A DNA stretch of 64,000 nt. Origin: Hydractinia symbiolongicarpus (taxonomy: Eukaryota > Cnidaria > Hydrozoa > Anthoathecata > Hydractiniidae). The stretch covers positions 4,278,001-4,342,000 of the forward strand of contig NC_079875.1 of the NCBI RefSeq assembly GCF_029227915.1, written 5' to 3'. A program made the translations under genes and the position numbers. Position 1 is the stretch's first letter. Each line of letters begins with the position of its first letter. Under the pieces are notes generated by a model. The model saw only the letters and a program-made list of their open reading frames with translations. It ran no database searches and had not been told where the DNA came from. This document shows positions 869 through 54,030 of this stretch, one piece after another.

Positions 869-2118
869 CAGGCTTTTTCAGGAGGGACGTGTGATCGCAC
901 GCGCACGCCTTGGCACACACCTAAATAGTTTTAGGCGTGTGATTAATCGCACGAATGAAAAATAAATATTGAGTTTAGAAAATCAACCCATAAAATCCAT
1001 TTTGCAGCGTGCGATGGCAGGCCTCGAAATAATTTTTAGAGTCTTGTCAGACATAATGTCCGACACATTTCCAATTCGGTCGGACATGCTTGTAGCTCGT
1101 TTCGAACTTTTGTCTGACAATACGTCCGATAGATTTCCGTCTTGGTCGGACACTTTCAAATCTCAGATTTATTGAATAGTCCTGGTCCTTTTAATCCAAG
1201 CGCAAGCCTATTCATAGCCAACCTGACCATCCTATCTAATTCACTGACTCCTGATTTAGTTAAAGAACTGCGTAGACATAAATTTCTTTTGCCCATCCCC
1301 TTCGTCGTTGGTAACCAGGTCTTACACAAGAAATCTAGCCATGCGTCTCTTAACTAATGCGGAGGTGAATGCTGACGGAGCACGGATAAAGCAAGTCTGC
1401 AAAACTGCACTTAAGCGGAATAGACATTTTATCATGGATTTAATTGTAAATAATTTCTTTATTTGACAAACAATTGAAAACCATAGCAGGTCCGAATTTA
1501 ATTGAGTTTTTTCTTTATGCCGCAAGTGTTATTTTTATTCAAATAATTTTAAAAACAAAAGCGAAGCATATTTTTGCCTATTTGCTTGTAATTGGTAATC
1601 TTCCATTCCAGGCGATTACTAATAAGAATCAATTGGTGGTGGGGTTTACTTGTGTTGAACCAATCTTGCTGGTGAAATCATTGTGTTTATAATAGTGGTA
1701 TATATTGTGTTGTGTGTAAATCAATTGAGTTTATTTGGTGTTGCGTTATTAGGAGAACTGTGAAGATAACCTACAGGTTAGTCATACACATATTGTGAGT
1801 TTAACAGTGATGACCTGAAAAATAAACAATAAATTTATGAAAATGACAGTATAGTCATGCAAACTATTATTTCGAACATGTTGAAAAGGAAGTTAAGATA
1901 GAGAGAGTCGCTGTACGTTGACGCTCGATCACCCTAACCCTAACGATTTAAAACGTCCCATACATTTCTACCGCAAAATGAATGCGCAGCAAAGAGTAAC
2001 CCCGGAGCCTGTATCGCACGTGTAACATCCTTTCCATGTGCGTTTTACATAGCACGCCTTACTTGATTTGCACGTGCGATTCATCGCACACCTACTTAAA
2101 TATTCCTGAAAAAGACTG
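869..2118. mobile_element. Non-autonomous TIR transposon, copy 1 (5-bp TSD)
   Basis: The left end reads CAGGCTTTTTCAGGA and the right end is its near inverse (reverse complement CAGTCTTTTTCAGGA). The direct repeat AGATG flanks it at 864-868 and 2119-2123. Subterminal GTGTGATCGCAC/GCACGTGCGAT motifs are repeated in inverted form. The interior holds repeated GTCSGACA-type motifs and no long ORF. It matches the element at 13551-14974 along its length, which confirms both ends. The CAG terminus and 5-bp duplication would suit a hAT-like (hAT5-type) element, but that superfamily call is inference. A short CCCTAACCCTAAC tract lies at 1932-1944. Confidence 0.8.
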
Positions 2119-2123
2119 AGATG

Positions 2124-2849
2124 CGTTCCTTACTTTTGTTTTTTTGTAAACCATCTATTACATTCTATATCTTATTTACAAAACTTTAAAAGCTCTGCAA
2201 GTGATAGGGCTATTGTGTTAAAGCCTACTTGGTTATTAAGCAATTTCTCTTATCGCCAAAAAGTGAACCACTCTCTAGATATTACATCCCAATGATAAAA
2301 GTTTAAGATAAAAATCTACAGCAATGACAAAATAATTAGGAAGTCGTTTACACATACAGCTATCACGATTCTAAAGAACATCAGGCTTGGAAAGGAATGG
2401 TTTAATGATTTAACCAGTAAGCCCCAACACTGGAGACTGTAAAAGCCTTTAAACATTTAAAACAAAAAAAAACACTTTTCTGTAGATCTCCCCTATTTGA
2501 CCTCAAAAATTAAAAATCGAAATATGCAAAATAACTAGATAATTCAAATATAATCTGTCTCATTTAATCAACCTTCGTTTGGCATCTATTTCATTTTGTT
2601 TTTATATGCCATGTGCCATCATGGAATTTTCGTAATCATGATCACACTTACCACAAGTAATAAATGTGTGTAAGACGCTGTTAAAAAACAAAGGCTGCGC
2701 ATTTTAATAAGCCAATTAAATCGCAAAAATGCCGTCACTAAAGAAAACTTAAAACATATAAAAGAAATTTTTAAGTTTGTATTATTATTATTAATTGTAA
2801 AGTCGCTTGTGCTCAAAAATAATTATGTGTGTCTGTGTGTCTTTTGAAG
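2124..2849. other. Non-coding, nothing recognised
   Basis: AT-rich sequence between two copies of the same transposon family. No exon, RNA gene or repeat boundary was recognised. Confidence 0.4.
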
Positions 2850-3145
2850 ACTTGCTTTATCAGTGTTCTGTCGGCGTTCACCTCTGCATTAATTAAGAAC
2901 CGCACAGCTAATTTCTTGTGTAAGACCTGGTTACCAACGAAGAAGGGGCCAGACAATAAAGATTTATGTCTACGTAGTTCTTTTAACTAAGGCAGGAGTC
3001 GGTGAATCAACTAGGATGGTCAGGTTGGCTATGGATAGGCTTACTCCTGGATTTAAAGGACCAGGACTATTCAATAAATCTGAGATCTAAGCAAATGTGA
3101 GTGTCTGACCAAGATGGAAATATACCGGAAGTTTTGTCCCATGAA
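2850..3145 (-). mobile_element. Internal fragment of the 869-2118 TIR family, inverted
   Basis: Its reverse complement matches the interior of the 869-2118 and 13551-14974 elements. The match runs from the GGTCGGACAC segment through TGGTAACCAGGTCTTACAC to GTGAACGCTGACAGA. Both termini are missing, so it is a relic. Confidence 0.7.
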
Positions 3146-3629
3146 AGTTGATTCATACACATTTTTTTCTAATTTTTCGCCTTTTGTTTTAGTGTAGCTA
3201 GCTAGCTAGCTAAATTGCTGTCATCTTGACTACAAATAAAATAGCCAAAGTCTTGCATCAATTGTGAGATAAAGAAATCCAGAGGTCCCACTTCTGTACA
3301 GTTTTTGAATAATAGAACAACAAGATTTTGCCATGTGATGACCCGCACACCAGAGATTTTACAAGCCTACATTGAATGACAACTGGTAATGAAGTAGTTT
3401 TGTAAAAGAATTTGTTTTTTGAATAAAGGATATCTCTATATCATTTAGAAGTTAAAAGTTTTAAATTATTTTTATACTAGTTTTGAGTGATGTATGAATA
3501 AATAAACTTGATTTACTTTTACTAAAACGTAATTTAAAAAATCCTGCTCGCAAGATATAGCGTATCCTTAAAACAATCAGGGATAATGTAACACCAGATT
3601 ACAACCAACATAATAACATGTTTTCTTAC

Positions 3630-6600
3630 TAGATCATCACATTTATACAGCAGTGGATTACGTGCATCAACAATTTGACAGATGACATCACTAAAAATAA
3701 ATAAACAATACATTAAACATTTTCATAATAAAATTGCTTTATATCAGGAAGAAAATTACCAAAAACCCAAGATAAATTTCCTTCATTTTTTATGAACTAC
3801 CTTAAGGCAGACCTGACTTAGGAGGGATCCAGAAGTACTTACAATTTCAGGCTGGTTGCAGCTATTACACAGTTACTTTTATCGTTTTACATTTATGGTG
3901 GTTAGCTGCTTGAAATTTTAGGGTAAAAGTTGAAGTATACATATGCTTTAAAATTTTAATAATTTTGTGAGTTTTAAAACTTTACTTAGTGTAGCCACAA
4001 CTGTGAAAATAATGTGTGGGAATTTTTTTATAGCTCTTTTCTTGAAATAAACAAACAACATTACTTGGCGAGTACCTGCATCTGGGAGCCTGCAAAAGTT
4101 CTACTTTTCAAAAGTATGCTTCAGGCCTTGATATTAATCATGAGCAATTACTTGCAAGCATGAAGCGCTTGCATGAACGTTTGTTACAAACCAAAAAAAA
4201 ATTTGATAAAAAAATTGACAATTTTCCCTCCAAATCTAGAATCCTCCAAACGCTAGAATACTTCTATTACTTTGTGCAACACGCAAAGCTACAGCAATTC
4301 ACAGATCAACCACAGAGCAAGCTCTATGAGCAGTGAACCTAAACGATGCACCACTATTAAATGATTTAAATCATTATCTAGCATTAACTCATTACTTGGG
4401 TTATAGTAAAGCGTTCTTCTTTCATTTGTTGTTTCCAATACCATTAAACTCAGTTTACTCTGCTTGGGACTTCAAAAATTAAATTTAAATCATATTTTTT
4501 CAAAAGAAAAAAATTAACAAAAATTCACAAAAATCACCTTTCAATCAACCTTGTAACATTAAAAGATAAGAATAACAGAACATAAAACAGCATAACAGTG
4601 TTACAACAAACATATAGAAACATTTCTTTCTGTAACAAACTATAATAAAAACACATATGCAAAATCTATTTAATAAAAATGTTTTTTGATTGGGTGTCCC
4701 TACTCTCCAATGGAGGATTCGAATTATCGTATGTAGGGAAAGGATGTTGTGTGGGCAAAGGGATGACCTAAGAAACAAGGGCTTCATCAGACGCACAGGC
4801 CTTGTTTCTTATACCGCTTTCTGCTCAGGTAGTGAAATTGATCCATGATAGAATCACAATGGAGTAGAGTTTAACAACAACCATATATTCTAGAATTTGG
4901 CTGCAAACACAGTGGCAGTTGAGGTATACAGCTGTGAGTTTTATGCATGGTTATGAAACTTATGAAAAAACCTTTTATAAACATAAATGATTATCTAGAT
5001 CTATGTTTCAACAGTCAAAGGTAGACTTAAAAGTAACATGCCCTGCTATGGTTTAATGCTTTAGTGAAAGTTGGGCGAGTGGAATTACTAGTGTACATTT
5101 GACTGTGTAAGTGGCCCATCACTTGGCTCATGGCTAAACTTCCATTAGCTGTACTGGAAAAAACCACTCCACTATCTTGAAGGTCCGAAATACTTTTGGA
5201 CCTAATTAAATATGGATGTTTTTAAGTCCTGAGTTCGCTCTATGGTCAAATTTGACAAGTTTGCAGTGAGTGTCACTTAGATAGAAAAGGCGTTCTTAAT
5301 TGCATCTGCTTGTGATACTTTTAATTCTGCATTTTTCTCAATATATTATGTCCAGGGTTGTAACTAGCTAGCTATAAACCTTTACAAAGCTAAAGAAACA
5401 AAAAATTTTGGATGACCATAACCACAAGCCATTTCCATATAACTAATGCTCAGAATCCAGGGTCAAGTTTTTTCGTGTGTGGTGTGAGTCTTCAAGCCGA
5501 ATTATTTCTTTTGGCAATTTAGAAAGTACCACTTGGCCTCTACATACTCCGTTGATTTTAACTTAAATATGCAGTCCAAAAATGTGCCCACTGCAATTAT
5601 AAAAAAGAGATTATTGCAGTTGTTTAAATACGAATGGTCATTGATATATTCTTGCTGTAGCCAAATGTTATGTTTAAATAGTGACTCATTTTAGTGCCAA
5701 TTTCAATACACAAAATACATTAAATTATTACTACATTGATTGAAATTAATTTAGCCAGACATTTCAAAAATGAAAATTTATTAATATTGATCTAGATTGC
5801 CAAAAAATCTGTCTGCTTGTTTATGTATTAAAAATAATCTAGAGAAAATAATGTTAATAATCTTTAAACTTGTTTGAACAACAAAAGTTCATTTCTTACC
5901 TTCTTTCAATAACCCTCCATAATTGCCGCCACACATCTAAATTCTTTTCATATGGCGTTAGCAATAATTGCTTTTCTTCTTGTAATCTGATGAAAACAAA
6001 AAAAGAAGGGCATCAAATTATTGAAGAGAAATTATTAATATACTTTTGATCCAGTCTATTAAAAAAATTAAGATTTATAGAGTTTTGCTTAATAGGCTTA
6101 TAAAAGACTTGTGATAATCAAACCAAAATTGAAATGCACACCATTTAACATGCCTAGAGACATGGTTAGACATGGTATGGTTGTTGATTAACAGTGGACA
6201 AAAAGTGTAATACAACCATATTACAGGCTTAAACATTGCTGAAATTCATTGAAAAGCAAAATCAGCATGCCATGTTTTTAAATATTTGCAAATAATACAG
6301 CACCTCTGCTAAACACAGCACCCCCTCGGTTTGCATCTCTTTTTTAAAAAGGGTGCTTATTTAATAAAATAGTGCTCTGAGGGGCAATCATTAGAGGACT
6401 ATTCCACAAATTCAAAATTAAATATTATGCTTAACTATAATTACTGTTGTCTGCTACTGAGAAATCATCAAAAAGTACCTACAATGCTAAGGTTCTTCTC
6501 CAGGTCAAAAATGCTTCTCTCTCAAGTAGGGCTAATTCTTCTGAAGATGTATTTACATCCCACTTTGGCCTAAACAGAATTGCAACAACTTACATATTAT

Positions 6601-8414: not shown

Positions 8415-11400
8415 TCATCATCATCATCATCATTCTCGGCTTAACGTCCGTTTTCCATGCTAGCATGGGTTGGACGGGGTATATTAATGACCCTCTTCCA
8501 ATCTGATCTAGACTGTGTTAGATCTAAACTCAACTTCCTCTCTATCAAGTCTGTCCTTATAACCTCCTGCCAAGTCTTTCTCGGTCTGCCTCTGGGCTTT
8601 GCCCCAGGAACTATCAAGTCTCTACACTTTCTTACCCAATTATTCTCCTCCATTCTTTCCAAGTGCCCCAGCCAATTCAATCTTCTTATCTGGATAACAT
8701 CTTTAATTCTACAGAGACTTAGCCTGCTTCTTAGCTCATCTGAACTCTTTCTGTCTCTCAGACTGGCATTACACATCCACCTAACCATTCTCATATCATT
8801 CCTTTCTAAACGGCCAAGATCTTCCTGCTTCACTGCCCATGTCTCACTACCGTACAACATAACACTTCTTACACAGGCCTCATACAACCTACCTTTTACC
8901 TCAATTGACAGGACTCTGCTAGTCAATAAAGGAAGTAACTCTCTAAACTTTTTCCAAGCAGAACCTATCCTGCAAGTAACACTTCTTCCAACACCCCCTT
9001 CACTGCCCAACATATCACCTAAGTAACAGAAGTTGTTAACTATCTCTAACGAGCCACTGTTGTACATCATTAAAGCTGGAAATACTTCATTCTTTATAAT
9101 CTCACCTTTGCAACGCTTGCATACAAACTGTATGCCAGCTCTTAACCTTCCACTAATACTACTGCACTTCTTATGTACCCAATGCTTGCAAGTCTGACAA
9201 AAAATTGAGTTACTACCAACCCCTTTCCTGCAAACTCCACAAGGCCACTTTCCAACTACAAGGTCACACTTGGCTGCAATGCTACTTATCATGACTTTAG
9301 ACTTTGCTGTGTTTACCTTCAGCCCTTTCTCTTCTAGTCCTTTCTTCCACTTCTCAAACTTTTCAACTAATTCTTCCATCGACTCTGCTATGAGAACCAA
9401 ATCATCTGCATACAATAACTCCCATGGGCAACCTGTTCTGAACTCCATCGACAGCGCTTCTAAGACTAGAATAAACAACAAAGGACTAAGTACAGAACCC
9501 TGATGTACACCAACATTTACACTAAATTCATCACTAAGTGAATCGTTAATCCTGACACGACTTCTAGCATTGCTGTACATAGACTGAACCATCGTAACTA
9601 GCCACTCATCCACACCTAATTTTCTCATAGCCCACCAAATAACTTTACGTGGCACTCTATCAAAAGCTTTCTCTAAATCTACAAAGGCAAAATAGAGATT
9701 CTTTCTCTTTCCTAAATACTTTTCCTGAAGCTGTCTGAGTAAAAATATTGCATCTGTAGTGCCACGCCCTGGAACAAAACCAAATTGCATCTTATCTATA
9801 TCAATTCTTTCTCTAAGTAACTTATCAATCACTCTTTCAATAACTTTCATTACTTGATCAACCAACTTCAAACCTCTATAGTTACCCCTTTCTAATGCAT
9901 CACCCTTGCCCTTGAAACAATTCACTATTACACTCGACTGCCACTCACTCCAAATAGCACCATCCTTTATAATCTGGTTAGCAAGACTTGTAATAAGCTC
10001 AACTCCAATATATCCAGATGCTTTTACCATCTCTGCAACAATACCTGATACTCCTGCAGCCTTGCCAATCTTCATTTTCCTAATAGCCTCCACTACCCAT
10101 TCTGTCTTGATCTGCATGGCTGGCCCTTCTACGACATCATCATCAGACAAATTATCCTCGTCCCAATCAAACTCAGTGTTAAGCAACCTCTGATAATGAT
10201 TCTTCCAAGCTACCCTTTTCTCCTCCTCTGTGCTAGCCAAAACACCTTCATCATTACGTATACACTTCTCACCTACAATATCTTGATTAGTCTTCTTCAT
10301 TTGCTTTGCTATCTTAAATACCTCATTGCGCTGGTCTTCCCTTCTTAACACATCTGCAAATCTGTTTCTCTCTGCTTCTGATTTTGCCTTATACACTGCT
10401 GTACGAGCCTGACGCTTAGCTTCTAAGTAAATATTTTTACTACCACCTGACTTCCACTCTTTCCAAAGTTTCCTCTTTTCCTTTATACACTGGTCAACCT
10501 CATTATTCCACCACCAGGTCTGTCTATGTCTAGCTGGTCCTTTCGTCCACCCACAGGTATCATCAGAAGCTTCTAGAAGACAATTCTTCAAAGTAGTCCA
10601 AGTACTTTCAACATTGTCACTATCACATTGACTATTGTAGGCTAACTGCTGAACTTTTGCACTAAATTGTCTTCCTACAATCTCTTCCTTCAGCTTCCAG
10701 ACTTTTCGACGGGGCCTGTACTTTCTCTTGGCTTCTCTGACACTCTTCAAGATAATATCACAAACCAGCAACCTATGCTGGGAAACACACTCTTCCCCCG
10801 ATATAACTTTCACGTCCTTCACCACTTTCTTGTCTGACTTTCTAACCAAAAAGTAATCTATCTGTGTCTTACAACCACCTGACTCATATGTTATCAGCCT
10901 ACTCTGTCTCTTACTGAATGATGTGTTGCAAACCACCATGTCTGTTGCCATTCCAAACTCAAGCAATCTCTCCCCTTCCTTATTTCTGCTCCCAAATCCA
11001 TAGCCTTCATGCACACCTCTATAACCTTCAGATGACTTCCCAACATGACCATTAAAGTCGCCGCCCACCATGACAAGTTCAGTGTCTCCAAACTTTGATG
11101 TGACTGCTATTAACTCATCATAAAACTTATCTTTATCTTCCTCACTGAGTCCACACTGTGGAGCATAAACTGACAGAAAAGTGACAATCCTATTACCTAT
11201 CAAAAACTTTATCACTATAATATGACTATTAACACGCATAACATCTATTACTTTTTCTACCCACTTCTCTGCAACGAATATGCCAACTCCTCCATATCCA
11301 TCACTATTACCAATCCAAAAAAGCTTATACCTTGCCCTCCTACCTTCCACAAATCTCACTGAAGCTCCTCTCCACCTAACTTCCTGAACACAACACATAT

Positions 11401-11911
11401 CAACAGATCTACGTTCTAACATTTCAACTACTTCACCTGCTCTACCTCTCAGAGTACCAACATTTACACTAGCCATCCTCAACCTAGTGTTATCTACCTT
11501 GTGATGTGATAGCTGGGTAACGGTCTGACGATGCTCACATCTGACATCTGTCCTACCGTGCGCGACACCTTCACTCCTTAGAGTTCCAGCCCCGTTTACG
11601 CAGTTTGTCTGATTAACTATTCTTACGGCCATTAATAAAGAGTTTTGGCATTGTTTTACAGCTGGATGCCCTTCCTAGCGCCAACCGTTCACAGACCGGA
11701 CTGGGTGTTTTTTAAAGTGACACCATCACTATGTGGCATTTCATGGGACTTCCACAATCGCCCCTTTAAACTAAGGTATGGTGGAGGACGTTCAACTCCT
11801 CTCTTGTCTCTTAAGGAGACCCTTCACCTATTTCATACTTTTAAAATAACAAAACCATTGTGGTCGGTCTTGAGGCAACTTTTTCTCGCTAAAGTTATTC
11901 TTGTCACTTAA
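8415..11911 (-). mobile_element. Full-length RTE-like non-LTR retrotransposon (LINE)
   Basis: Read on the minus strand, the element has a leader of about 280 bp, an intact 1063-codon ORF and a 3' tail of GAT/ATGATG repeats at 8416-8432. The leader carries the motif GGATGCCCTTCCTAGCGCCA, which recurs in RTE-related LINEs and SINEs of many invertebrates. A second, 5'-truncated copy with the same tail lies at 53177-54030. The 5' boundary is approximate and no clear target-site duplication was found. The ORF has no stop or frameshift, so the insertion is probably fairly recent. It lies between LSG1 (start codon 8259) and whatever lies upstream. Confidence 0.88.
8441..11632 (-). CDS. LINE ORF: AP endonuclease - reverse transcriptase - PHD-like finger
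   Basis: The 1063-residue retrotransposon polyprotein begins with an AP-type endonuclease at roughly residues 50-295 (SVNVGTLRG, CVQEVRW, GGDFNGHVG, TQIDYFLVRK, SQHRLLVCD), which nicks target DNA. Reverse transcriptase follows at about 510-770, with QFGFVPGRGTTDA, FVDLEKAFDRVPR, GVHQGSVLSPLLF and the catalytic YADD near residue 743. A Cys/His cluster at about 798-840 (CGVCRKG, FCQTCKHWVHKKC, CKRC) resembles a PHD/RING zinc finger. The C-terminal region (YLGDMLG, LYEACVRSVMLYGSETW) is shared by RTE-like elements. All catalytic motifs are present. The last codons, PTHASMENGR then stop, are encoded by the conserved 3' end, which contains the 14-bp palindrome at 8455-8468. Long plus-strand frames within this span are antisense shadows. 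Confidence 0.93.
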   Translation of the reverse strand: MAVRIVNQTNCVNGAGTLRSEGVAHGRTDVRCEHRQTVTQLSHHKVDNTRLRMASVNVGTLRGRAGEVVEMLERRSVDMCCVQEVRWRGASVRFVEGRRARYKLFWIGNSDGYGGVGIFVAEKWVEKVIDVMRVNSHIIVIKFLIGNRIVTFLSVYAPQCGLSEEDKDKFYDELIAVTSKFGDTELVMVGGDFNGHVGKSSEGYRGVHEGYGFGSRNKEGERLLEFGMATDMVVCNTSFSKRQSRLITYESGGCKTQIDYFLVRKSDKKVVKDVKVISGEECVSQHRLLVCDIILKSVREAKRKYRPRRKVWKLKEEIVGRQFSAKVQQLAYNSQCDSDNVESTWTTLKNCLLEASDDTCGWTKGPARHRQTWWWNNEVDQCIKEKRKLWKEWKSGGSKNIYLEAKRQARTAVYKAKSEAERNRFADVLRREDQRNEVFKIAKQMKKTNQDIVGEKCIRNDEGVLASTEEEKRVAWKNHYQRLLNTEFDWDEDNLSDDDVVEGPAMQIKTEWVVEAIRKMKIGKAAGVSGIVAEMVKASGYIGVELITSLANQIIKDGAIWSEWQSSVIVNCFKGKGDALERGNYRGLKLVDQVMKVIERVIDKLLRERIDIDKMQFGFVPGRGTTDAIFLLRQLQEKYLGKRKNLYFAFVDLEKAFDRVPRKVIWWAMRKLGVDEWLVTMVQSMYSNARSRVRINDSLSDEFSVNVGVHQGSVLSPLLFILVLEALSMEFRTGCPWELLYADDLVLIAESMEELVEKFEKWKKGLEEKGLKVNTAKSKVMISSIAAKCDLVVGKWPCGVCRKGVGSNSIFCQTCKHWVHKKCSSISGRLRAGIQFVCKRCKGEIIKNEVFPALMMYNSGSLEIVNNFCYLGDMLGSEGGVGRSVTCRIGSAWKKFRELLPLLTSRVLSIEVKGRLYEACVRSVMLYGSETWAVKQEDLGRLERNDMRMVRWMCNASLRDRKSSDELRSRLSLCRIKDVIQIRRLNWLGHLERMEENNWVRKCRDLIVPGAKPRGRPRKTWQEVIRTDLIERKLSLDLTQSRSDWKRVINIPRPTHASMENGR

Positions 11912-15950: not shown

Positions 15951-16141
15951 GGTTGTTGACAAACAGTTTTCGTCTCCGTTAACGGCAAATTGGTTGCTAG
16001 ACTTGGACCCCTCTCCCCCAGCCCCTTAACGGCAAGCCCATTTCCCCTAAGTTAGTTTTTGTCTCTGTTAACGACAAATTTGCCGTTAAATAGAATTTTG
16101 CTCCCCTCTGTGCTTTACGGAACAATTTTTGTGGAGACTTA

Positions 16142-17732
16142 CAGTACAGTCCAGATGTAAGCGTACGTGTACGCTCAACTTGCAAAAATAATTGCTTTCA
16201 TTAAAAAAAACAATAGGATAGCGAGTTCCTTTCAAATTGCGCGAAAATAATTGCTTCGTGTTAAAAACAAAAGCATAGCGAGAAACATTGTTTAAAAACA
16301 ATACTCTGCGCGAGAATAAATTAAACGCGACGGCCATTGAATTTTAATTTTTTTTAACAACGAAACTAATTATAGTAACGCGATTTTAATCTGATATATT
16401 TAAAATCACAAGCTCTTACTTTCAAAATGCGATCTAAAAAAACATTTCTATTGCAGTTTTTCGTTTTTAAACTTTTAAAATGCAATCTAAAAAAAAATTT
16501 CTATCGCCGTTTTTTGTTTTAAAACTTTTAAAATGCGATCTAAAAAAGCTTTTCTATAGCTGTTTTCCGTTTTAAAACTTTTATAATGCGATCTAAAATT
16601 ACATTTCTATCGCCGTTTTTCGTTTTAAATCTTTTAAAATGCATTTTAAAAAACATTTCTATCGCCGTTTTTCGTTTTTAAACTTTTAAAATGCGATCTA
16701 AAAAAACATTTCTATCGCCGTTTTTCGTTTTAAAACTTTTAAAATGCGATCTAAAAAAAAATATCTATCGCCGATTTCCGTTTTAAAACTTTTATAATGC
16801 GATCTAAAATTACATTTCTATCGCTGTTTTCCGTTTTAAAACTTTTATAATGCGATCTAAAATTACATTTCTATCGCCGTTTTTCGTTTTAAATCTTTTA
16901 AAATGCATTTTAAAAAACATTTCTATCGCCGTTTTTCGTTTTTAAACTTTTAAAATGCGATCTAAAAAAACATTTCTATCGCCGTTTTTCGTTTTAAAAC
17001 TTTTAAAATGCGATCTAAAAAAAAATATCTATCGCCGATTTCCGTTTTAAAACTTTTATAATGCGATCTAAAATTACATTTCTATCGCTGTTTTTCGTTT
17101 TAAAACTTTTAAAATGCGATCTAAAAAACATTTCTATCGCCGTTTTTCGTTTTTAAACTTTTAAAATGCGATTTAAAAAACATTTCTATCGCCGTTTTTC
17201 GTTTTTAAACTTTAAAATGCATTTTAAAAAACATTTTTATCGCCGTTTTTCGTTTTTAAACTTTTAAAATGCGATCTAAAAAAACATTTCTATCGCCGTT
17301 TTTCGTTTTTAAAGTTTTAAAATGCAATCTAAAAAAATTTTCAATCTTTGTTAAATAAAATAATTTCTATCGCGTAAAGGCTTTATTTTACCCGCGCAAC
17401 CAACAATGCCTTCTCGCTAGTCTATTTAGTTTTCACGCAAAACCTTTGTTTAATAAAAATATTAAACAATGGCTCTTCGTGTCACATTGATAGAGTTGAT
17501 AACATTTGCAATTATGCTATTGGGAATAGTTATGTTAACACTATTTAACAATAGTTACGCGCAGTTATAATAAGCTATTTTTTCTTCAATAATCTTTTGT
17601 TTATTACGCGCAAGTTAATGACTTACAAGACTCGCAAGATAATTAATAAGAACAAAAGACAAACAACTACCGCCTCCGAGAAAAAGGTGTGAAACTTGAG
17701 CGTACGCGTACGCTTACATCTGGACTGTACTG
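16142..17732. mobile_element. Tc1/mariner-like MITE (TA target) filled with a satellite
   Basis: Perfectly placed TA dinucleotides lie at 16140-16141 and 17733-17734. The 37-bp terminal inverted repeats begin CAGTACAGTCCAGATGTAAG and differ at one position. The TIRs contain a GTACGYGTACGC palindrome. The 1.59 kb interior has no transposase and is mostly the tandem array at 16422-17340. TA duplication and the CAGT terminus fit the Tc1/mariner superfamily; the family is otherwise unidentified. Confidence 0.85.
16422..17340. repeat. 52-53 bp tandem satellite, about 18 units
   Basis: The unit is CTTTTAAAATGCGATCT, then an A-run, CATTTCTATCGCCG, then TTTTTCGTTTTAAA. Eighteen units were counted by eye. 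Diagnostic variants (TATAATGCG, AAATGCATTTTAAA, AAATATCTATCGCCGATTT) recur in the same order in units 4-8 and 9-13, giving a higher-order period of about 264 bp. There are no unique spacers, so this is not CRISPR-like. Confidence 0.92.
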
Positions 17733-17927
17733 TATATGAACACAAGATACATTTTTTAACAACAAATTCTAGATTATGGCAGATTTTTACTGTCGAAACA
17801 TTTTCTAATTTGTTGAATTTTTTTCATTTTCCCTAAAAGAAACAAAAAAGGTGAGAAAGTGAAATTCATGCCAATTTGCCTTTAACAGAGACGAAAACTG
17901 TTTGTCGACAGCCTCCAACACTCTAAC

Positions 17928-19461: not shown

Positions 19462-22400
19462 ATGAGTGTAAGAACATATAATCCTTCAGTTCGTGTTGGA
19501 AACTGGATTGAAGATCTTTGCTTAGAAGAAGTAATATTGTCTATAACTACTGCTATTATATCTTAGCTGTGAAATGGAAATAATTTTAATTTTTTTGTAG
19601 GACCTCCTTAAAGACTTTGTAGAGAAGGAAGAAAATGGCGATCTATTAATCTATAAGGCCAATAACTTAGCTTCTAAGTTACTTCAGTATGTAAGTCTTT
19701 TGTTTGGATTCTTTCAAGTATTAAATCATATGATACTGGCAAATAGATTATAAATTATAACATATTAGTGAGGGCCACTATGTAATTTCGTGTGCACATG
19801 TGTGTTAAAAGTGATTTTTTGATTTAAAGTTGTTCCTTAGGTCCCAAATTACCAAAAAAATATGGGTGGCAAAATTTTTTGTCCCATCGGACCAAATTAG
19901 ATGACGTCATCACTTTTACAGTCAGCAAAAAAATAATTTCACATTTATATGTCATATTATATATTGTTGGAAAAAGGAGATCGAGTGGATCAAAAAAAAT
20001 GTAAGAACCATGTCTTCAAAACGTAACGTTCGAAAGATATTACTATTCAAACTTTGTACAAATTACAGACCGGTAATTTACTGACCCAGCACAAAAATGA
20101 CGATAACCTGCTCAATAGCGAAGTTTTTTTGTTGAATTTTAGTATGGTATTGGGTCACCCTAATGTCTTTCTGTTTGATCAAAATTTATTGTTCAAATCA
20201 CTTCAAGGGATAATTTACAGACCAGTAATTTACAGACCAAAGCACGTGTTTAGTTGTTTACTTTAGTTTTGAAAAGCAAGTAGCGAATTTCACTTAGACA
20301 TTTTGTATGTATTAGTATCAGTATAATAACAAGTTTTGTTTTATAATTGTTCGATTTCATGGACATAGACATAGAATTCGAATGTTCTATTTCTAGAAAA
20401 CATTCTATTGTTCAATTTCATAGCTAGACTGTTTAATTTCGAAGTGTTAGTGAAGTGTAATGTGAAGTTTATAGTATAGACATACATGCATAATAATAAA
20501 ATGATAAAAAAAAGGATAAAAGGAACAAAATCGATATGGGTACCGTTAAAAAAAGTGAAAATAGTAACTTTCAAAGATCTTGGAAAATCTATCAAAAAGA
20601 GAGTAGGGGATAAAGTTATACAACTCAAAGAGGAAAAAACGCTACTATCAAGATTTTTAATCACTGCACGGAAAAGTCCCGAGTTGGATTTGGAGCACTG
20701 TATTGGCAACTTTGAGTTTTCTGTTGTACCAAAGGCCTTGTTCAGTGCTGATGGAATTCCATTGGCTTGTTTAGACAAATTAAAATTGATTCACGGTATA
20801 GAGGAATTAGCCAGCAAAGGACAAACGACCAATGGTTTATCTGGAGAAGTCGAAACAAACAAAGTAATCATTATAGATGGAATGGCTGTTGTGAATCAAA
20901 CTCCAAAAACACCGGCAGTTAAAACATGCAAGGTATGTATTCAATTTATCACTATCTTACGTAATTTTCTGACGCACTTGTGAAATACTCTGTTAATTTT
21001 TTAGGATTTCGCATCAGCTTTCACAGAACGTGTACTACAAATTTCAAGAGGATGTGATGAAATACGATTGGTATTTGATTGCTATATAGAAAACTCCTTG
21101 AAAGCACGGACAAGAAAGCATCGTACATCTGTTAATGAAGTTCGATACAAAGTATCAGACAACAGCAATATTTCATCCATTAGTCTCAAGCAATTTCTTT
21201 CCCACATTGATACAAAGCAAGCTTTAACCATCTACCTGGCAAAGAAAGTGATGGAGGCTCTTTCATCATTGCATATTCGGTATATAGTGACTTATGATAC
21301 TAAAATGGAATCAAATTTTGTTGATTGCAGAATACACGACCACGAAGAAGCTGACACAGCACTTATATATAATGCTATGGATGTTGCACAGCAATCTCCT
21401 TTGACCAGTTGTATTGTTTACTCTCCGGATACTGACGTGTTTCTACTGCTAATTTACTACTATGAGATGTTACCAATAAATACCATTTTTAGAACAGGGC
21501 GAGTTTCTACTCTACGTGATATTGATATTCGTAATTGCTTTGAAGCCCTTGGTGCAGTACACGCGAAAGCTATTCTTGGTTTTCATACGTTCACAGGGTG
21601 TGACCAAACTGGGCGTTTCAACAAGAAATCGAAGTCTGCTTGGCTGAAGATTTATTTACAGGCAGATAATGAGGTGGTTCTGGCATTATCGACACTTGGA
21701 AGTACTGTCGAACTTCCTAATCTGGAAACACTGGAAAGCTTAGAACGTTTCGTGGTTTCGATGTATAAGGGGAATAAATGTCCTGCAGACGTGGTATCAC
21801 TATCTCAATTGCGCTGGAATTTATTCTCCAAATTCCAGTGTGATGCTGATATGTTGCCACCAACATTAGCTGCATTGAAGTACAAAATATTCAGGTGTCA
21901 CTTCATTTCAATGGTTTTACGAAGCTCGCATATCCTCATTCAACAACTTCCGAATGCAGTCAATTATGGTTGGGATACAGATGAAGTCGGTAACTTATCC
22001 CCCATAATGACTGATGAACTTCCTGCACCGTTGGCACTCATCGAGTTAAGTTCTTGTAATTGCAAAACAAGTTGCATATCCAACTGATGTAAATGCCGTA
22101 AAAATGGTTTTTTGTGCACTGACATGTGTAAATGTACGACGTGTCAAAACAGTGGTGGCGCAAGCGATGAATCCGAGTCAGATGAATATAGTTCTAGTGA
22201 TGATGAGTGAATGAAACATTGTACAAGCATTGCTGAAGTTGTTTTTTGTCATTATTTTCAGCAATTTTTTTAACTTTGTGAAATTGCCAGAAAGAAAGTA
22301 AACAACTAAACACGTGCTTTGGTCTGTAAATTACTGGTCTGTAAATTATCCCTTGAAGTGATTTGAACAATAAATTTTGATCAAACAGAAAGACATTAGG

Positions 22401-25400
22401 GTGACCCAATACCATACTAAAATTCAACAAAAAAACTTTGCTATTGAGCAGGTTATAGTCATTTTTGTGCTGGGTCAGTAAATTACCGGTCTGTAATTTG
22501 TACAAAGTTTGAATAGTAATATCTTTCGAACGTTACGTTTTGAAGACATGGTTCTTACATTTGTTTTGTACCACTCGATGTCCTCTTTCCAACGATATAT
22601 AATATGACATATAAATGTGAAATTATTTTTTTGCTGACTGTAAAAGTGATGACGTCATCTAATTTGGTCCGATGGGACAAAAAATTTTGCCACCCATATT
22701 TTTTTGGTAATTTGGGACCTAAGAAACAACTTTAAATCAAAAAATCACTTTTAACACACATGTGCACACGAAGCTTTATATCAGAACATAGCAGTCCTCA
22801 CTATATCTGAAGTTTTTAATAAATTTTAATAGAAAAATCTATGGAATACTGTACCACGGTTTGTTATTTACTTTGATGCCCTAGTCCGGATTTGATATGA
22901 ATGGATTTCTTTAAACCCATATTTCATTGAATTTCTTTTTACGATCAGGTTGAGCTCAGCAAGCCAAAGAATGGTAATATCTGTTTTGGTGACATCATTT
23001 GTTTGTATAACCCTAGAACAGAAGCTAATTTGTCAATAAATTTATCAAACAGTCGCTTACACGAAGCAAACAGTGTGTCAGCACCATGTGGAGTATCAGC
23101 ATCGAAAATCCTAAATCCGTGTTTTAGAAATGCCTTCGTTATAACCAGGTAAGCTTACAAAGAGGTAAATATGGTTAGACACACCAGGTATTTAGTGATT
23201 CACATATAGATATGGTAACTCTTACTGATTTTTTAGCAAAAAGTTTTTTCCAGGAGGCAAAAGGACTGAATCGGACACTCTCGCATCAACTAATTTATTC
23301 ATACATAAGCAAGAATTGATTTTTTATAATTTTGACATATCCCTAGATTCTATCACTTGCGCTCTGCGTAATAGAAATTATGGAGTGACAAAACATTTTC
23401 TCTTTTTACCCAATGATTTTTCATTTAAAAAAAGTCAATGTAAACAACAAAAATGACATTAAATGCTGATTTTGACAATTTGACACGTTTAAACCAATAT
23501 TTTCATTAAATGCTAATTTGTGAAATATGAACAAAAATATTAAAAACGTAAATAACTTTTCTTCTCTTTGCATTCCTCTAAGAAGAAGTCTATAGTTTTG
23601 TAGTTTTTAATATCTTTCGCTTATAGTTGTGATGGTGTCAGTCAAGTAGGAGACTTTCTGACATATGGACAACAATTTCTTCTTACCACCTTACCAGGGA
23701 TTGGAGGAGAGGTAGGCAGCTATGTAATAACAGATAAACGGTAGGACTTTTCAGGATCGAAATCTTTTGCGATTTTTAGACAATTTTGGCGAAAATAAAT
23801 GTCACTGGAAGAATCAGATAGGATCTAAATTATCAGAACAATGCACATAACAACAAAAATTACAAACTATTTATCACATGTTTTATTGATGTCACGATCT
23901 AGTTAAATCTTTTTTAGCTTTTGAACTATAAATATCGCGAGAATCTGCTCTTCCCCTAATTTCAAAAACACGAAATCAAAAATATACAACAACCAATACC
24001 TTTAACGTTTGAAATGTAATGCAAATAATAAGTTTTAATTTTATTTAATGACCATAGCTCAAATTATCAAGTGATGTTGCCACTTTTATGAAAAATGCCA
24101 AGAAATCTCGTTTACAAGAAGTCTCTCTTACCAGTACAATATCTTATTTATGTCACTGGTAAGTTTTTTGTTCATATCAGGTAACTTAAAGCAATTTTTA
24201 CCAGTTAGGAGAATTATTAAGATGAACGCATTTTATACGTACACTCTTTCATGCAGAGTGCATTTTTCTTCAACTTTGATCTCCTTACGCTATTTCAGCC
24301 TCATAATATTTTTGGTACGCTGTTGGCCAATTTTGTGTATGTTCGTACCTTTATACGCAGGATAGAATTTCCCCTATTTTTTTGTATAAAGAAGAACTTA
24401 TGTTTCTCCAGTTGTTCTACATGAGCCGATAAATGTTTTTTGTATTACCAAGTATACATACCAGTAAGGTTTTTAATTATCAGGACCAAAATTTTTTATT
24501 TTGCAGACAACCTGTATGACGTCATTACTGGTACCGTTGACGTCATTTTTCAATTTTTTCACACATTGTTGTATCGTTGTGACAAGTTTCAACTCATAGA
24601 CTTATTCAAATTTTTGGCTTGGTCAGTTGCTTAGCAGTTTCTTTGTCTCGCTCCAAATATCAGTCTCAGCCCATCGCAACTCGGTTGTTCTTTTCCAACA
24701 AACTGTGCATCTGTTTATATAGCATTTTCACTTCAGGCAAATTCTTCATTTCGACCCACAGCAGAGATTCGAAAGCGAAGGCACACCTGTACCAGTAAGT
24801 GGAAATGGTTTCTTGCTTAAAGCAATCGTACGCCACGCGTCATTGGCTTGCTTATTATACCCTTCTGAACCTCTGTAGTACTTCTTTTTTCTAGGTCATT
24901 TTTGTTAGCTAGTGACACCTTGTTTGCTCCTTTTTTCAGCTCCCCATTGTTTTTTGTACAGTAGACTTTTTTATCTTGAACTCGCGTGGATCATTCCTCC
25001 AGGCATTTACAACTGCCACGAGCGTGATTTGTACCCCTGGTTTCTTATCATAGTGGTCCGCAAATAAACCCTTACTGCTTGTAAGCCTTGATAAAACAGT
25101 TCTGTGTTAAAGTTTTTGTTGGATTTGGACGATTTTTCAAATTGTAGGATATAGAATTATGCGATAGTTCTATTGAATTGTTTTACACAACTCCAACGAT
25201 ATCTTTTACTCTATTTTCAGGCGAATGAGAAAATAATGTTTAATCACTGCAAGACAAACCAGAGACTTTGTGCGCTACAAGAATACGGTTTTAGGTTAGT
25301 TAATTGTTACCATAATAGGATAAACTGATTTTTGTGAACATTAAATACTGTGGAATTAACTATATTCTATTAAATGTATCAATATTTTTCTTTTTTCCAC

Positions 25401-27150: not shown

Positions 27151-30100
27151 CTACTCATCTCGTTCAACAAAACAATTTTTTAACATACAACCCAACTTCC
27201 GGCACCGTGCAAACACAAATAAAACAATTATTATTAACAATGGTGCTACCAGAACTACATGTTCTATCCACATAAAGACTGTCGCCATTGTGTTAATGCC
27301 AGGTACGCTTGACTCATCGTTCATGTAAAGAAATGCAAAAAAAAATCTTTCTGTATTGATGAATATTAAACAACACAGTGATGCAGTCTCAACATGGTTC
27401 AAGATTTGCGTACGATATGGTAAAACATACAGATGATGCAGAAGACAACCCTGCAATAACAGCAATGCGAAAATCACTCGTAAGATGGGATTTACGGTGA
27501 ATGCACACAAGGCTGCTAGGACCATTCGTCGACCAATCAGAACAGCTTCCCAATTTAATTGACCATTTTCATTGAATTTGTAATGACCAATAAAAATCTC
27601 TATAACCTTGTCTATATCATCTTTGTTATTCATGACATTCAATGTTCTGTTTGTACATACGGAGCGCAAGTAGTAATATAATGAGATTGGTGGGATGGCA
27701 AATGAAAGGTAAAATTGCTTTAGATTTATTTGACTTCTTCGTAGCATCTTTACAGACACGTGTACAGATACTGTAAAAGGAATTATCCACAATACAGTGT
27801 AAATCATAATGCAATATTGCCACCAGGTGTAGCATTTGATATCTCCTTGAATGTATAAATAATTTTCATTGTTTATCGAAACACAATTCAACATTCGAAA
27901 GCAAAATGTATTTACTGCGGTGTAACCAAGCAAAGTAACTTGAATCGAGCAAGCTCGTATGTTCTTCATAATTTTGTAAGTTGTAGTTCCAGTGGACGTC
28001 GAGTTTCTTTTCCTTCTAATAAGCTGAAAAGTTTTTATAATTGCAGCTAATAAGAAAAGTATGATAAAAAGAATAAAGATATTTCCAAGTTTGATCAGCG
28101 ATTGCGACAGTGCATCAAGATCTTTTGTTGGGCACAATTTAGACATGTTAAATTGAACTAATTCAAAATTAAAAAAGTGTGTTATCGAGTTTTTTAATAC
28201 TGTTACATATCCGTGATCAAATTTTTCAGGTATTGGGATTTTTGTTAATAATTGTATTTGGTAATAAAAAAACGTGATAGGTTTTAATCCTGAGATGTAT
28301 AGGTCTGTTTTACCACCATTCTTTTCTGTTTTATCATCGTTGTCAGGGGAGCTTTCTCGCTCCTCCTTGTATTCTTCAATACCCTCTTCAAAACGTCTGT
28401 ATCGATACAAATCATTATTAACTGATTTTTTTCTTTTACGTTTCAATTTTTCCAGATTGGTGTACAAATACTTGAATATAGTTTTATAGTACATCAATAA
28501 CACGACGAAAAGTATTGCAAACGTTAGATACAATAACCAGAAGAGCAACTGATTGCAATTTTCATTCTTAACACAGTTGTTATTAAAATAATTCAACCGG
28601 TATCCTTTTTGACAAGTTCCGCAAAGTATTCCTGTTCTGTTTTTATTACAAGTATTGTATGAAACACATTTTTTGGGTGGACAACAATACGAAGCAGGGC
28701 ACGGTATGAATACTACTTTGTGATCACTTCCGACGTATCCCCAAAAATTACCTTTACTTTGTATTTCATATACACATTTTCCACCAGGAGGACACGGCAA
28801 ACACTTAAAATCAGACTTCTTCACAATGAGTTTTCTTTTTGGCATTGACAATTTTACGTTAGCTCTTATTAAACTGTACATTCCTTTTGCACATATCCCA
28901 CATTGAAATGAAAATATTTGAAAACTTCGTTTCAGTGGGAGCACGTCAAAATTATATGGACAAGATAAAGACAGGTTATTTAATTGATTTATCCCGCATC
29001 TTTGTCTGTAATCACAACGCACCCCATCCAGCACTGGTACATCTGGAATTGCGTTGGTTATAGCCATGGATACATTTGTGTAATTCACATGAGCGTTTGT
29101 AAGCATTATTATCCCGTTAGCTAAAGGACTGGTTGCTGCTCCAATAAATTGTACTGAATGTAAATGTAAAATCATATTATGATAGCGTCTTGGTATTCTG
29201 GCGTAAAAGCTACCACCGGAGATTGTAGCTGAGTTGTAAAGAAATGTCGATGATTCAATTAAAGACGTGTTCCTTCCTTTGGAAATGTATATGGCGCCAC
29301 CAGAGTCTGCAGTGTTATAAGAGAACAACGAGTGGTGCACGAATAAGTCACTGCTTTTAATATATATGGCACCACCTTGAATAGCTGTGTTATTTTTAAA
29401 TGTAGAATTATAAACTGTCAAGTTGGTAGGTGAATATACTCGGAAGGGTGAAAATTTAAATTCGCAGACCTTGCTTCTTGCTATTGTAATTCCTGGACAT
29501 TTCGTGATATCGCTGTTTTCAATATATATTGCTCCACCTTGAATGGCTGCATTATTTTCAAATAAAGAATCAGAAATTGTGAATTCCTTAACTAAATGTA
29601 CTCGCAGAGATGAATATTGAAATCCTGAGAACTTACTCTCCACCAATTGAATTCTTGGGCCATTACTAGACCAAATCCCATGCATGGCAACTTGATGCCC
29701 ATTAAAAATAGATTTATTTACTTCAATGAAAAAATTAGGCGTTGTAGTCGACTGGTTCCGTCCAGGGATAGTACATTTAACCCAAATTCCAATGAATGCG
29801 CATTCAAACGTGCTACTTCTTACTTGTATTCTCGCTACTTTAGTTGCATGCAATTCCATTATTGCTCGTTTTTCATAGCTATTAGCTTGAAAAGTGCATG
29901 AATTTATAACAGTCAGTAGATTTTTAACTTTTAAGGTCTTAACAAATCTTGCATTTTTTATAGAACTATGTGACACATGCATCGTAACAACTTCTGCAGT
30001 ACCGTTTGCCTGAATTATAGGTGTAGTTGCATTCTCAAAGCTGCAGTGAGAGATTATAATGTTAAAAGATGAACTATACTGCAAGAGTGAAGTTCCTACA

Positions 30101-31203
30101 AAAATTATGTTCGCTAGTTTTAATTGAATCTCTTCTTTTTCTGATAAATAGAATAAGTAATTTCGATTTTTGTTTTGGTTTATCATTTGGATGACTGGTC
30201 GGAATTCATTATCTTTATAATTTGTCATTGTAATGTTATCTTCAAGGATTACTGATGTGTTCACGTAATATACATATGTTTTATCCGTACCCCCGTCCAA
30301 TCGCACAGTAGCTGTTGAAGTGCGACTCTGCTTTACAGCAAATTCAAATGTACTGCAGGGGCTTAAGTACGTGCCACAAAAAGTGTCATCTTTACCATTA
30401 CGTTTGGAAACGTGTATGTCCAGGGAGGCTACGAAGAAAGAATCAATCAAATGAACACTACATCCTGTATGTTACGAAAAATGAAAGTGTTACAGGTGTG
30501 GTTATATTACCCGTCAAATTTTGTTTTTTGTTTTTTGAGGAGGGGGGGGGGGGGGGGGGGCTCTAAAAATAAACTGTTTCAGCAATTTCTTATCCTATTT
30601 TTTAACAAAAAATGTCTCCTTAACGACGAACTGTAAAGTAAAACGCATATCATTTTTAAAAAAATATTTTCTTGCCTCTTTAAAACGGTTGCATTAATTT
30701 TCTCTTAGTCTGAACAAAAACGCATTATCCAGACTATATCTCTGTATATACAAATCAATTAGTAAAATTTACCCATAGTGCCCTTTTTTTCTCTATGAAC
30801 GACGAATTCGATAGTTCAAGCAGTTTTTTAATAGTATTAGATATAGTATTAAAAGTTCACTTGTACAAGTGGAATCCATAAAATAGGTTTTTATTGTTCT
30901 GTTTCTTAGAGCACACAGACATAAGAAATATCAGAATGCTAAAAGTATTTTTTTACCTAGAACAGGCTAGAATCCCCCCCCCCCCTTGTACTATATGTAA
31001 GCTTGAGCTACACAAAGTTTTAGAAATGGCGGTTTGCGGTTTTGAAAATCGCAATTATCCTTACACAGTGTTGATTTTTAAGCTTTTATAAAAACATTTT
31101 TTCTTACACGTACAAATCTGTTTGTAAACAAATTCTGTTACTTACCAATCTCCACACAAAATATTATAAATACGTTCATACACCAATACATTTTGATTTT
31201 CAT
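27151..31203 (-). CDS. Secreted-start beta-helix, Cys-rich, multi-membrane-span protein
   Basis: Exon 1 (31146-31203) encodes MKIKMYWCMNVFIIFCVEI, a signal peptide. It joins exon 2 (27151-30428) by GTAAG...TTCGTAG, giving about 1111 residues. The mature N-terminus has FCGTYLSPCSTFEFAV, then a right-handed parallel beta-helix region to about residue 470, with repeated ENNAAIQGGAIYIENSD-, FKNNTAIQGGAIYIKSSD- and YNTADSGGAIYIS-like turns. A cysteine-rich stretch (about 500-640: CGICAKGMY, CLPCPPGGKC, CGTCQKGYRL) leads into about eight hydrophobic segments, the first LLFWLLYLTFAILFVVLLMY. A charged cytoplasmic-type loop (EEGIEEYKEERESSPDND) follows the first. This looks like an extracellular adhesin- or receptor-like ectodomain on a polytopic membrane anchor. 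Similar uncharacterised proteins are, from memory, numerous in cnidarians. Function unknown. Confidence 0.85.
30429..31145 (-). other. Intron 1 of the beta-helix gene, with G and C homopolymers
   Basis: The intron separates the signal-peptide exon from the rest. It contains an uninterrupted run of about 19 G at 30542-30560 and a run of 11 C near 30975-30985. The short open frames across the G run are artefacts of the homopolymer. Confidence 0.7.
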
Positions 31204-53176: not shown

Positions 53177-54030
53177 ATCATCATCATCGTCATTCTTGGC
53201 TTAACGTCTGTTTTCCATGCTAGCATGGGTTGGACGGGGTATAATAATGACCCTCTTCCAATCTGATCTAGACTGTGTTAGATCTAAACTCAACTTTCTC
53301 TGTATCAAGTTTGTCCTTATAACCTCCTGTCAAGTCTTTCTTGGTATGCCTCTGGGCTTTGCCCCAGAAACTATCAGGTCTCTACACTTTCTTACCCAAT
53401 TATTCCCCTCCATTCTTTCCAAGTGCCCCAGCCAATTCAATCTTCTTGTCTGGATAACATTTTTAATTCTACGGATACTTAGCCTGCTTCTTAGCTCATC
53501 TGAACTCTTTCTGTCTCTCAGACTGGCGTTACACATCCACCTAACCATTCTCATATCATTCCTTTCTAAACGGTCAAGATATTCCTGATAAAATTGACAA
53601 CAATATATACAGAGCATATATAAATTATCACTTCCTGCTTCGCTGCCCATGTCTTACTACGGTACAACAAAACACTTCTTACACAGGCCTCATACAACCT
53701 ACCTTTTACCTCAATTGACAAGACTCTGCTAGTCAACAAAGGAAGTAACTCTCTGAACTTTTTCCAAGCAGAACCTATCCTGCAAGTAGCACTTCTACCA
53801 ACACCCTCCTCACTGCCCAACATGTCACCTAAGTAACAGAAGTTCTCAACTATCTTTAACAAGCCACTGTTTTACATCATTAAAGCTGGAAATACTTCAT
53901 TCTCTATAACCTCACCTTTGCAATGCTTGTATACAAACTGAATGTCAGCTCATAACTTTCCACCGATACTATTGCACTTCTTATGTACCCAATGCTTGCA
54001 AGTCTGACAAAAAATTGAGTTACTACCAAC
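53177..54030 (-). mobile_element. 5'-truncated copy of the RTE-like LINE
   Basis: It is collinear with 8420-9220 and keeps the ATC/GAT tail and the PTHASMEN-coding palindrome (53215-53228). It is truncated inside the PHD-finger coding region at 54030. The frame is broken: a 50-bp insertion (53588-53637) is bounded by TTCCTG repeats. Remaining minus-strand frames at 53330-53650 and 53566-53862 are fragments of the ORF C-terminus. Confidence 0.93.

Follow-up and report, generated by a model that had tools for sequence, protein, structure and literature searches.

The subject of this work is a transposon-like unit at positions 19766-22803 (3,038 bp) of a 64,000-nt stretch of Hydractinia symbiolongicarpus DNA, which is called the window here. 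The unit consists of two long terminal inverted repeats (TIRs) around one recognised gene, whose product is likely to be a FEN/XPG-type nuclease with a CXC cysteine array at its C terminus. We read it as a non-autonomous AcademX-like element that has kept the nuclease-CXC gene and whose transposase part was lost or never held, and we put a probability of about 0.62 on this reading. An AcademX-like lineage fits because the single relative found, on a contig that we refer to as L001, fuses a transposase-like part to a FEN/XPG-like module and because the window unit has 3-bp flanks. The element is probably a known kind of transposon in stripped-down form, rather than one moved by a new enzyme.

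Inverted repeats and flanks

The core arms of the unit (19787-20271 and 22288-22772) are inverted, 485 nt each and 98% complementary. Aligned from the outside in, they begin with 8 identical bases (TAGTGAGG), continue with approximately 20 diverged bases and a 10-bp indel, and are near-identical from there on. The complete left TIR, beginning with TAGTGAGG, extends over 19766-20271 on the plus strand, and the right one, ending in CCTCACTA, over 22288-22803 on the minus strand. The junctions read CATAT and then TAGTGAGG on the left, and CCTCACTA and then TATCTG on the right. The TAT on either side of this single copy (19763-19765 and 22804-22806) fits a putative 3-bp target duplication, and a TA duplication with GTGAGG ends fits too. 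Since a fixed 3-bp match between flanks has a chance of about 2% from the base counts of the sequence, and since the boundary was picked after TAT had been seen, the flanks taken alone are a consistent but weak sign. The first-pass annotation of this DNA had described inverted repeats of about 500 bp, TAT flanks and one two-exon gene in the core, all of which were confirmed.

The motif TTAC[AT]GACC occurs four times in each arm (in the left arm at 20063, 20078, 20215 and 20230, that is, within 20063-20238 on the plus strand), and the window contains 8 exact matches, none of them outside the arms. Our guess from the sequence is that these copies are candidate subterminal binding sites.

The element is present once in the window, and a single copy, on which both ends and flanks had to be judged, is also what would be seen if a host nuclease gene had become trapped between two inverted copies of a miniature inverted-repeat transposable element (MITE) or a foldback element, with no joint movement. 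We regard this as highly improbable given that the arms face each other, share their outermost 8 bases and have matching flanks, that the unit lies inside an intron of CFAP161, and that the only relative likewise has its module in a transposon-like open reading frame (ORF).

The putative nuclease-CXC gene

The one gene recognised between the arms lies on the plus strand, with a start of its own and a leader of 214 bp. Exon 1 (20486-20932) carries the first acidic motif, IIDG, and is followed by a 72-bp GT-AG intron (20933-21004) and by exon 2 (21005-22208), which carries VFDCY, HEEADT, SPDTD, FTGCD and a nine-cysteine CXC array. The splice sites were read from the sequence and are supported by L001, which lacks the intron stretch. 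The two exons rejoin in frame to give a 550-residue reading in which the five motifs start at residues 129 (IIDG), 172 (VFDCY), 262 (HEEADT), 289 (SPDTD) and 345 (FTGCD), with D131, D174, E264-x-D266, D291-x-D293 and D349 as their acidic residues, and in which the array cysteines are residues 500, 502, 506, 511, 513, 520, 524, 526 and 529. Both the five acidic motifs and the C-terminal array had been noticed in the first pass and hold, with the correction that an in-frame TGA (22085-22087) falls within the array, after the third of its nine cysteines; 509 of the 550 codons are open ahead of it, and the rest of the reading is open as well. Because this stop takes away six of the nine array cysteines, the product of the interrupted copy is probably defective, either inactive or mislocated. 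No description of a nuclease-CXC gene of this kind was present among the literature matches listed; the AcademH/AcademX paper lies outside the search, and we do not claim that the gene is absent from print.

The protein is likely to be a FEN/XPG-type nuclease because of the order of its motifs and their full conservation between two proteins that are about 30% identical. As in the FEN1, XPG and PolI 5' nucleases, which are PIN-like, the order is D, D, E-x-D, D-x-D, D, which agrees with the acidic pattern of FEN/XPG/PolI exonucleases (D, D, E-x-D/E, D-x-D, D), at a spacing that is suitable when compared with that of FEN1. One Lys and two Arg, which lie +8, +12 and +15 from the second Asp and which L001 also keeps, are reminiscent of the FEN1 arch. 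In contrast to these nucleases, the window protein has no significant 5'-nuclease match in Pfam or by hhalign. The assignment to the Rad2/XPG/FEN nucleases made in the first pass thus stands as far as the motif order is concerned, while the profile matches do not reach significance.

A search of Pfam with hmmscan returned no XPG or 5'-3' exonuclease model up to an E value of 10, with the HMMER filters dropping most matches above about 0.1. The NYN family, which is PIN-like, matched across HEEADT-SPDTD at E=0.046 (0.064 with the stop read as W), under its curated cut-off. A match to a leucine-rich repeat (LRR) family, at E=0.12 and 0.082, was taken as chance; its scores are about level with those of NYN. 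By hhalign, a three-row profile built from the E. coli PolI exonuclease together with T4 RNase H and T7 gp6 was matched at E=0.21, while four unrelated controls, among them a cut gene, gave 0.24-0.66. Singly, PolI exonuclease was matched at E=0.3 and T4 RNase H at E=0.45, the latter out of register. The 5'-nuclease match is not significant, as 28 of 399 column shuffles scored equally high. The best of these alignments, with a score within chance, sets HEEADT on VEADD and SPDTD on TGDKD, which are metal-binding positions of PolI.

The cysteine array resembles the CXC domains of Tesmin/TSO1/LIN54 and MSL2 in having nine cysteines at near-canonical spacing. It differs from them in that there is one CXC repeat, placed C-terminally on a nuclease, and in that one cysteine interval is 1 residue under the consensus. 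The Pfam TCR/CXC model matched at E=0.0014 (19.3 bits) with the stop read as X and at 1.1e-4 (22.9 bits) with the stop read as W, against a curated cut-off of 23.5, and it gave 10 and 11.4 bits on L001. MSL2-CXC matched the window protein at E=0.81, likewise under its curated cut-off, and a search of the PDB with that protein returned the LIN54 CXC domain (5fd3) only, at E=0.016.

A relative fused to a transposase-like region

L001 is contig JAJRVU010000273.1, filed under a Planctomycetota metagenome-assembled genome (MAG), and was the sole contig obtained from a motif scan of genome_contigs with a pattern that covered one of two codon choices at its first residue. By tblastn, residues 11-531 of the window protein align to it with 154 identities in 542 columns (28%) at E=4e-52 and without a stop on the L001 side. 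The nuclease-CXC module of L001 is collinear with the window protein and retains each of the eight motif carboxylates and each of the nine cysteines. It differs in its setting, since it occupies approximately the C-terminal third of an ORF (2115-6512, minus strand) that has at least 1,466 codons and runs off the contig, and no TIRs are visible on the contig.

The contig is probably a eukaryotic contamination of the MAG because its observed/expected CpG ratio is 0.40 and because the 2.1 kb beyond the ORF hold no stop-to-stop frame above 125 aa; a genuinely bacterial origin was set aside for the same reasons. Other searches for relatives were negative. Of seven viral_contigs scans, five were empty, one gave 120 pattern matches of which none was confirmed, and one gave 27 loci among which tblastn recovered no relative (best E=0.78). 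There was no match in the phage and plasmid searches, in NCBIfam, or in the PDB when searched with a two-row profile (A2). A PHROGs match at E=0.081 was taken as chance, as were a PDB match of L001 to cystathionine gamma-lyase (E=1.6) and two matches, at E=0.079 and 0.028, between a Tc-toxin binding domain and the L001 module.

About 900 residues precede the nuclease module in L001, and this N-terminal part resembles a transposase in its motifs. Pfam DUF6589 matched residues 559-760 at E=0.003 (16.8 bits), and at E=0.0011 (18.2 bits) when a 691-aa piece was used; the transposase-like region around this weak match lies at 3753-5825 on the minus strand of L001. If the match is real, DUF6589 may itself be a transposase core. 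The N-terminal part also contains the motifs FDNID (340), LDEAIY (551), LGAFH (577) and IEQTFN (798), from which D, D, GxxH and E might make up the core of a DDE enzyme. The layout, with two Asp after predicted strands, then GxxH, a long helical stretch and Glu, resembles that of RNase H-fold transposases with an inserted helical domain. It is a reading of motifs and not of a fold, because the strand positions come from an AlphaFold2 model of the N-terminal piece with a mean predicted local distance difference test score (pLDDT) of 36.4. When this part was compared by hhalign with the same controls as the nuclease, nothing was found, the best match being an unrelated control at E=0.12.

A tblastn search of the window with the whole L001 protein (E up to 1) recovered the nuclease part only. 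Residue 1 of the window protein pairs with approximately residue 913 of L001, past the last candidate motif at 798. The window unit therefore resembles the nuclease half alone, since its protein starts after the transposase-like part of L001 has ended.

Classification

AcademX takes its X from its XPG nuclease and has a Cys-rich finger. According to a 2023 paper (PMC10045372, citing Kojima 2020), the Academ superfamily includes AcademH with 9-10 bp and AcademX with 3-4 bp duplications, lengths that are tied to the encoded helicase and nuclease, and Academ is counted among the superfamilies with a DDD/E transposase in PMC9587614. The window element is like AcademX in its putative nuclease and in its putative 3-bp target duplication, which would be within the 3-4 bp described for that group (PMC10045372), and differs from it in having no transposase part between its TIRs. 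No Academ-type DDD/E transposase was recognised between the TIRs, and a non-autonomous member need not have one. Under the Repbase rule as given in PMC4455052, it is termini aligned with those of an autonomous family that define membership. We infer both that the element belongs to Academ and that the N-terminal part of L001 is of DDE type.

The first-pass annotation had offered two options, an element moved or copied by a nuclease in place of a DDE transposase or a non-autonomous element that carries the nuclease, and the second is the better one. That the nuclease-CXC protein itself mobilises an autonomous element, nicking or resolving the repeat ends without any DDE transposase, might be suggested by its being the sole gene recognised between near-identical long TIRs, and by a gene that has its own start, leader and intron and is open for most of its length. 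However, the one relative is fused to a part of about 900 aa with transposase-like motifs, the 3-bp match between the flanks is compatible with strand transfer by a DDE enzyme, and AcademX already supplies a nuclease in a transposon of this kind (PMC10045372), so that we hold mobilisation by the nuclease to be decidedly improbable. A family of nuclease-CXC-only elements that moves or copies without a DDE transposase, or else a two-part system with a separate transposase element, seems to us quite unlikely. The suggestion that the unit defines an undescribed transposon class likewise found no support, as a nuclease and duplications of 3-4 bp are already described together for one Academ lineage, AcademX (PMC10045372).

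A non-autonomous element of another DDE superfamily (PIF/Harbinger-like, Zator-like or a further group whose duplications are 2-3 bp long) could also have taken up the nuclease-CXC gene as cargo. The 3-bp or TA flanks would suit the 3 bp of Zator, the 0-4 bp of PHIS or the TA of Mariner as listed in PMC10045372, and accessory nucleases of several kinds are described for the Kolobok lineages KolobokE, KolobokP and KolobokD in PMC9587614. These lineages are similar to the window element as we read it in being DDD/E transposons with an extra nuclease but differ in their nuclease folds and in their TTAA duplications (PMC9587614). We consider capture by another superfamily unlikely; the L001 module is already within a transposon-like ORF, which makes a recent independent capture unneeded.

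Several points weigh against the AcademX-like reading. The Academ assignment was made from published descriptions, L001 is the only relative found, and no autonomous relative with TIRs was seen. None of four terminal or subterminal motifs tried was found in L001, a contig that is open at its 5' end. The DUF6589 match is under the curated cut-off of 27 bits, and this family is named in no paper of the literature searched. The GxxH of L001 has G at its first position, compared to C or D in the published transposase signature C/DxxH (PMC9587614). The AlphaFold2 models are of low confidence, not only for the N-terminal piece, at the mean pLDDT given above, but also for the L001 module, at 33.6 (two sequences). 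Finally, the gene's own start and 214-bp leader are unexpected after a simple deletion, and for this reason two genes may have been present in the ancestor; the window unit may have arisen by deletion or from such a two-gene ancestor.

Proposed mechanism

In the AcademX-like reading, a DDE transposase from another copy would bind the long inverted repeats with their repeated TTACAGACC motifs and move the unit in trans, and strand transfer would give rise to the 3-bp duplication. The kept gene would be an accessory protein of the lineage, a FEN/XPG-type PIN nuclease that its C-terminal CXC domain would tether to DNA, and in intact copies the nuclease may trim flapped or branched DNA at the junctions formed on excision or integration. 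We infer the movement in trans, the nuclease activity and the step at which it acts.

If nuclease-only copies have spread as a family, an accessory nuclease would have been split from its transposase in a little-studied lineage, and this would, if true, give a direct handle on the role of a flap-type nuclease in DDE transposition. Kojima suggested that the accessory enzyme is related to the length of the target duplication (PMC10045372), and pairs of nuclease-only and full elements could test the accessory enzyme against duplication length.

Host locus and neighbouring features

The window is eukaryotic, and the element lies between exons of the host gene CFAP161 (19462-23740, plus strand), with exon sequence at about 19462-19690 and from 22949 onwards, the exon limits having been placed by eye. 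The joined translation of the flanking exons, to which the upstream exon sequence contributes the initial 52 residues and the downstream sequence the remainder, matches the solved CFAP161 chain 8snb over residues 1-148 at E=5.9e-41 with an unbroken junction, and Pfam CFAP161 over residues 45-151 at E=1.9e-15. As the flanking exons read continuously as CFAP161, the element sits in an intron of the host gene, on the same strand. Disruption of the host reading frame was set aside, the element being intronic.

The neighbours include an alpha-1,6-fucosyltransferase and a long interspersed nuclear element (LINE)-type ORF of 1,077 aa (8441-11674, minus strand) with an endonuclease, a reverse transcriptase and, after the latter, a PHD finger; the 3' part of this ORF is found again at 53177-54030. 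An array of 53-bp units (16418-17337, 17.5 copies) lies within 15951-17913 and is bordered by short inverted repeats at 15951-15993/17871-17913 and 16140-16184/17690-17734, and this region may be a further mobile unit that has a minisatellite inside it. An unbroken ORF of 1,106 aa (27151-30471, minus strand) matches Chlam_PMP-type repeats, and its C terminus, judged by eye, is seemingly cysteine-rich and membrane-spanning.

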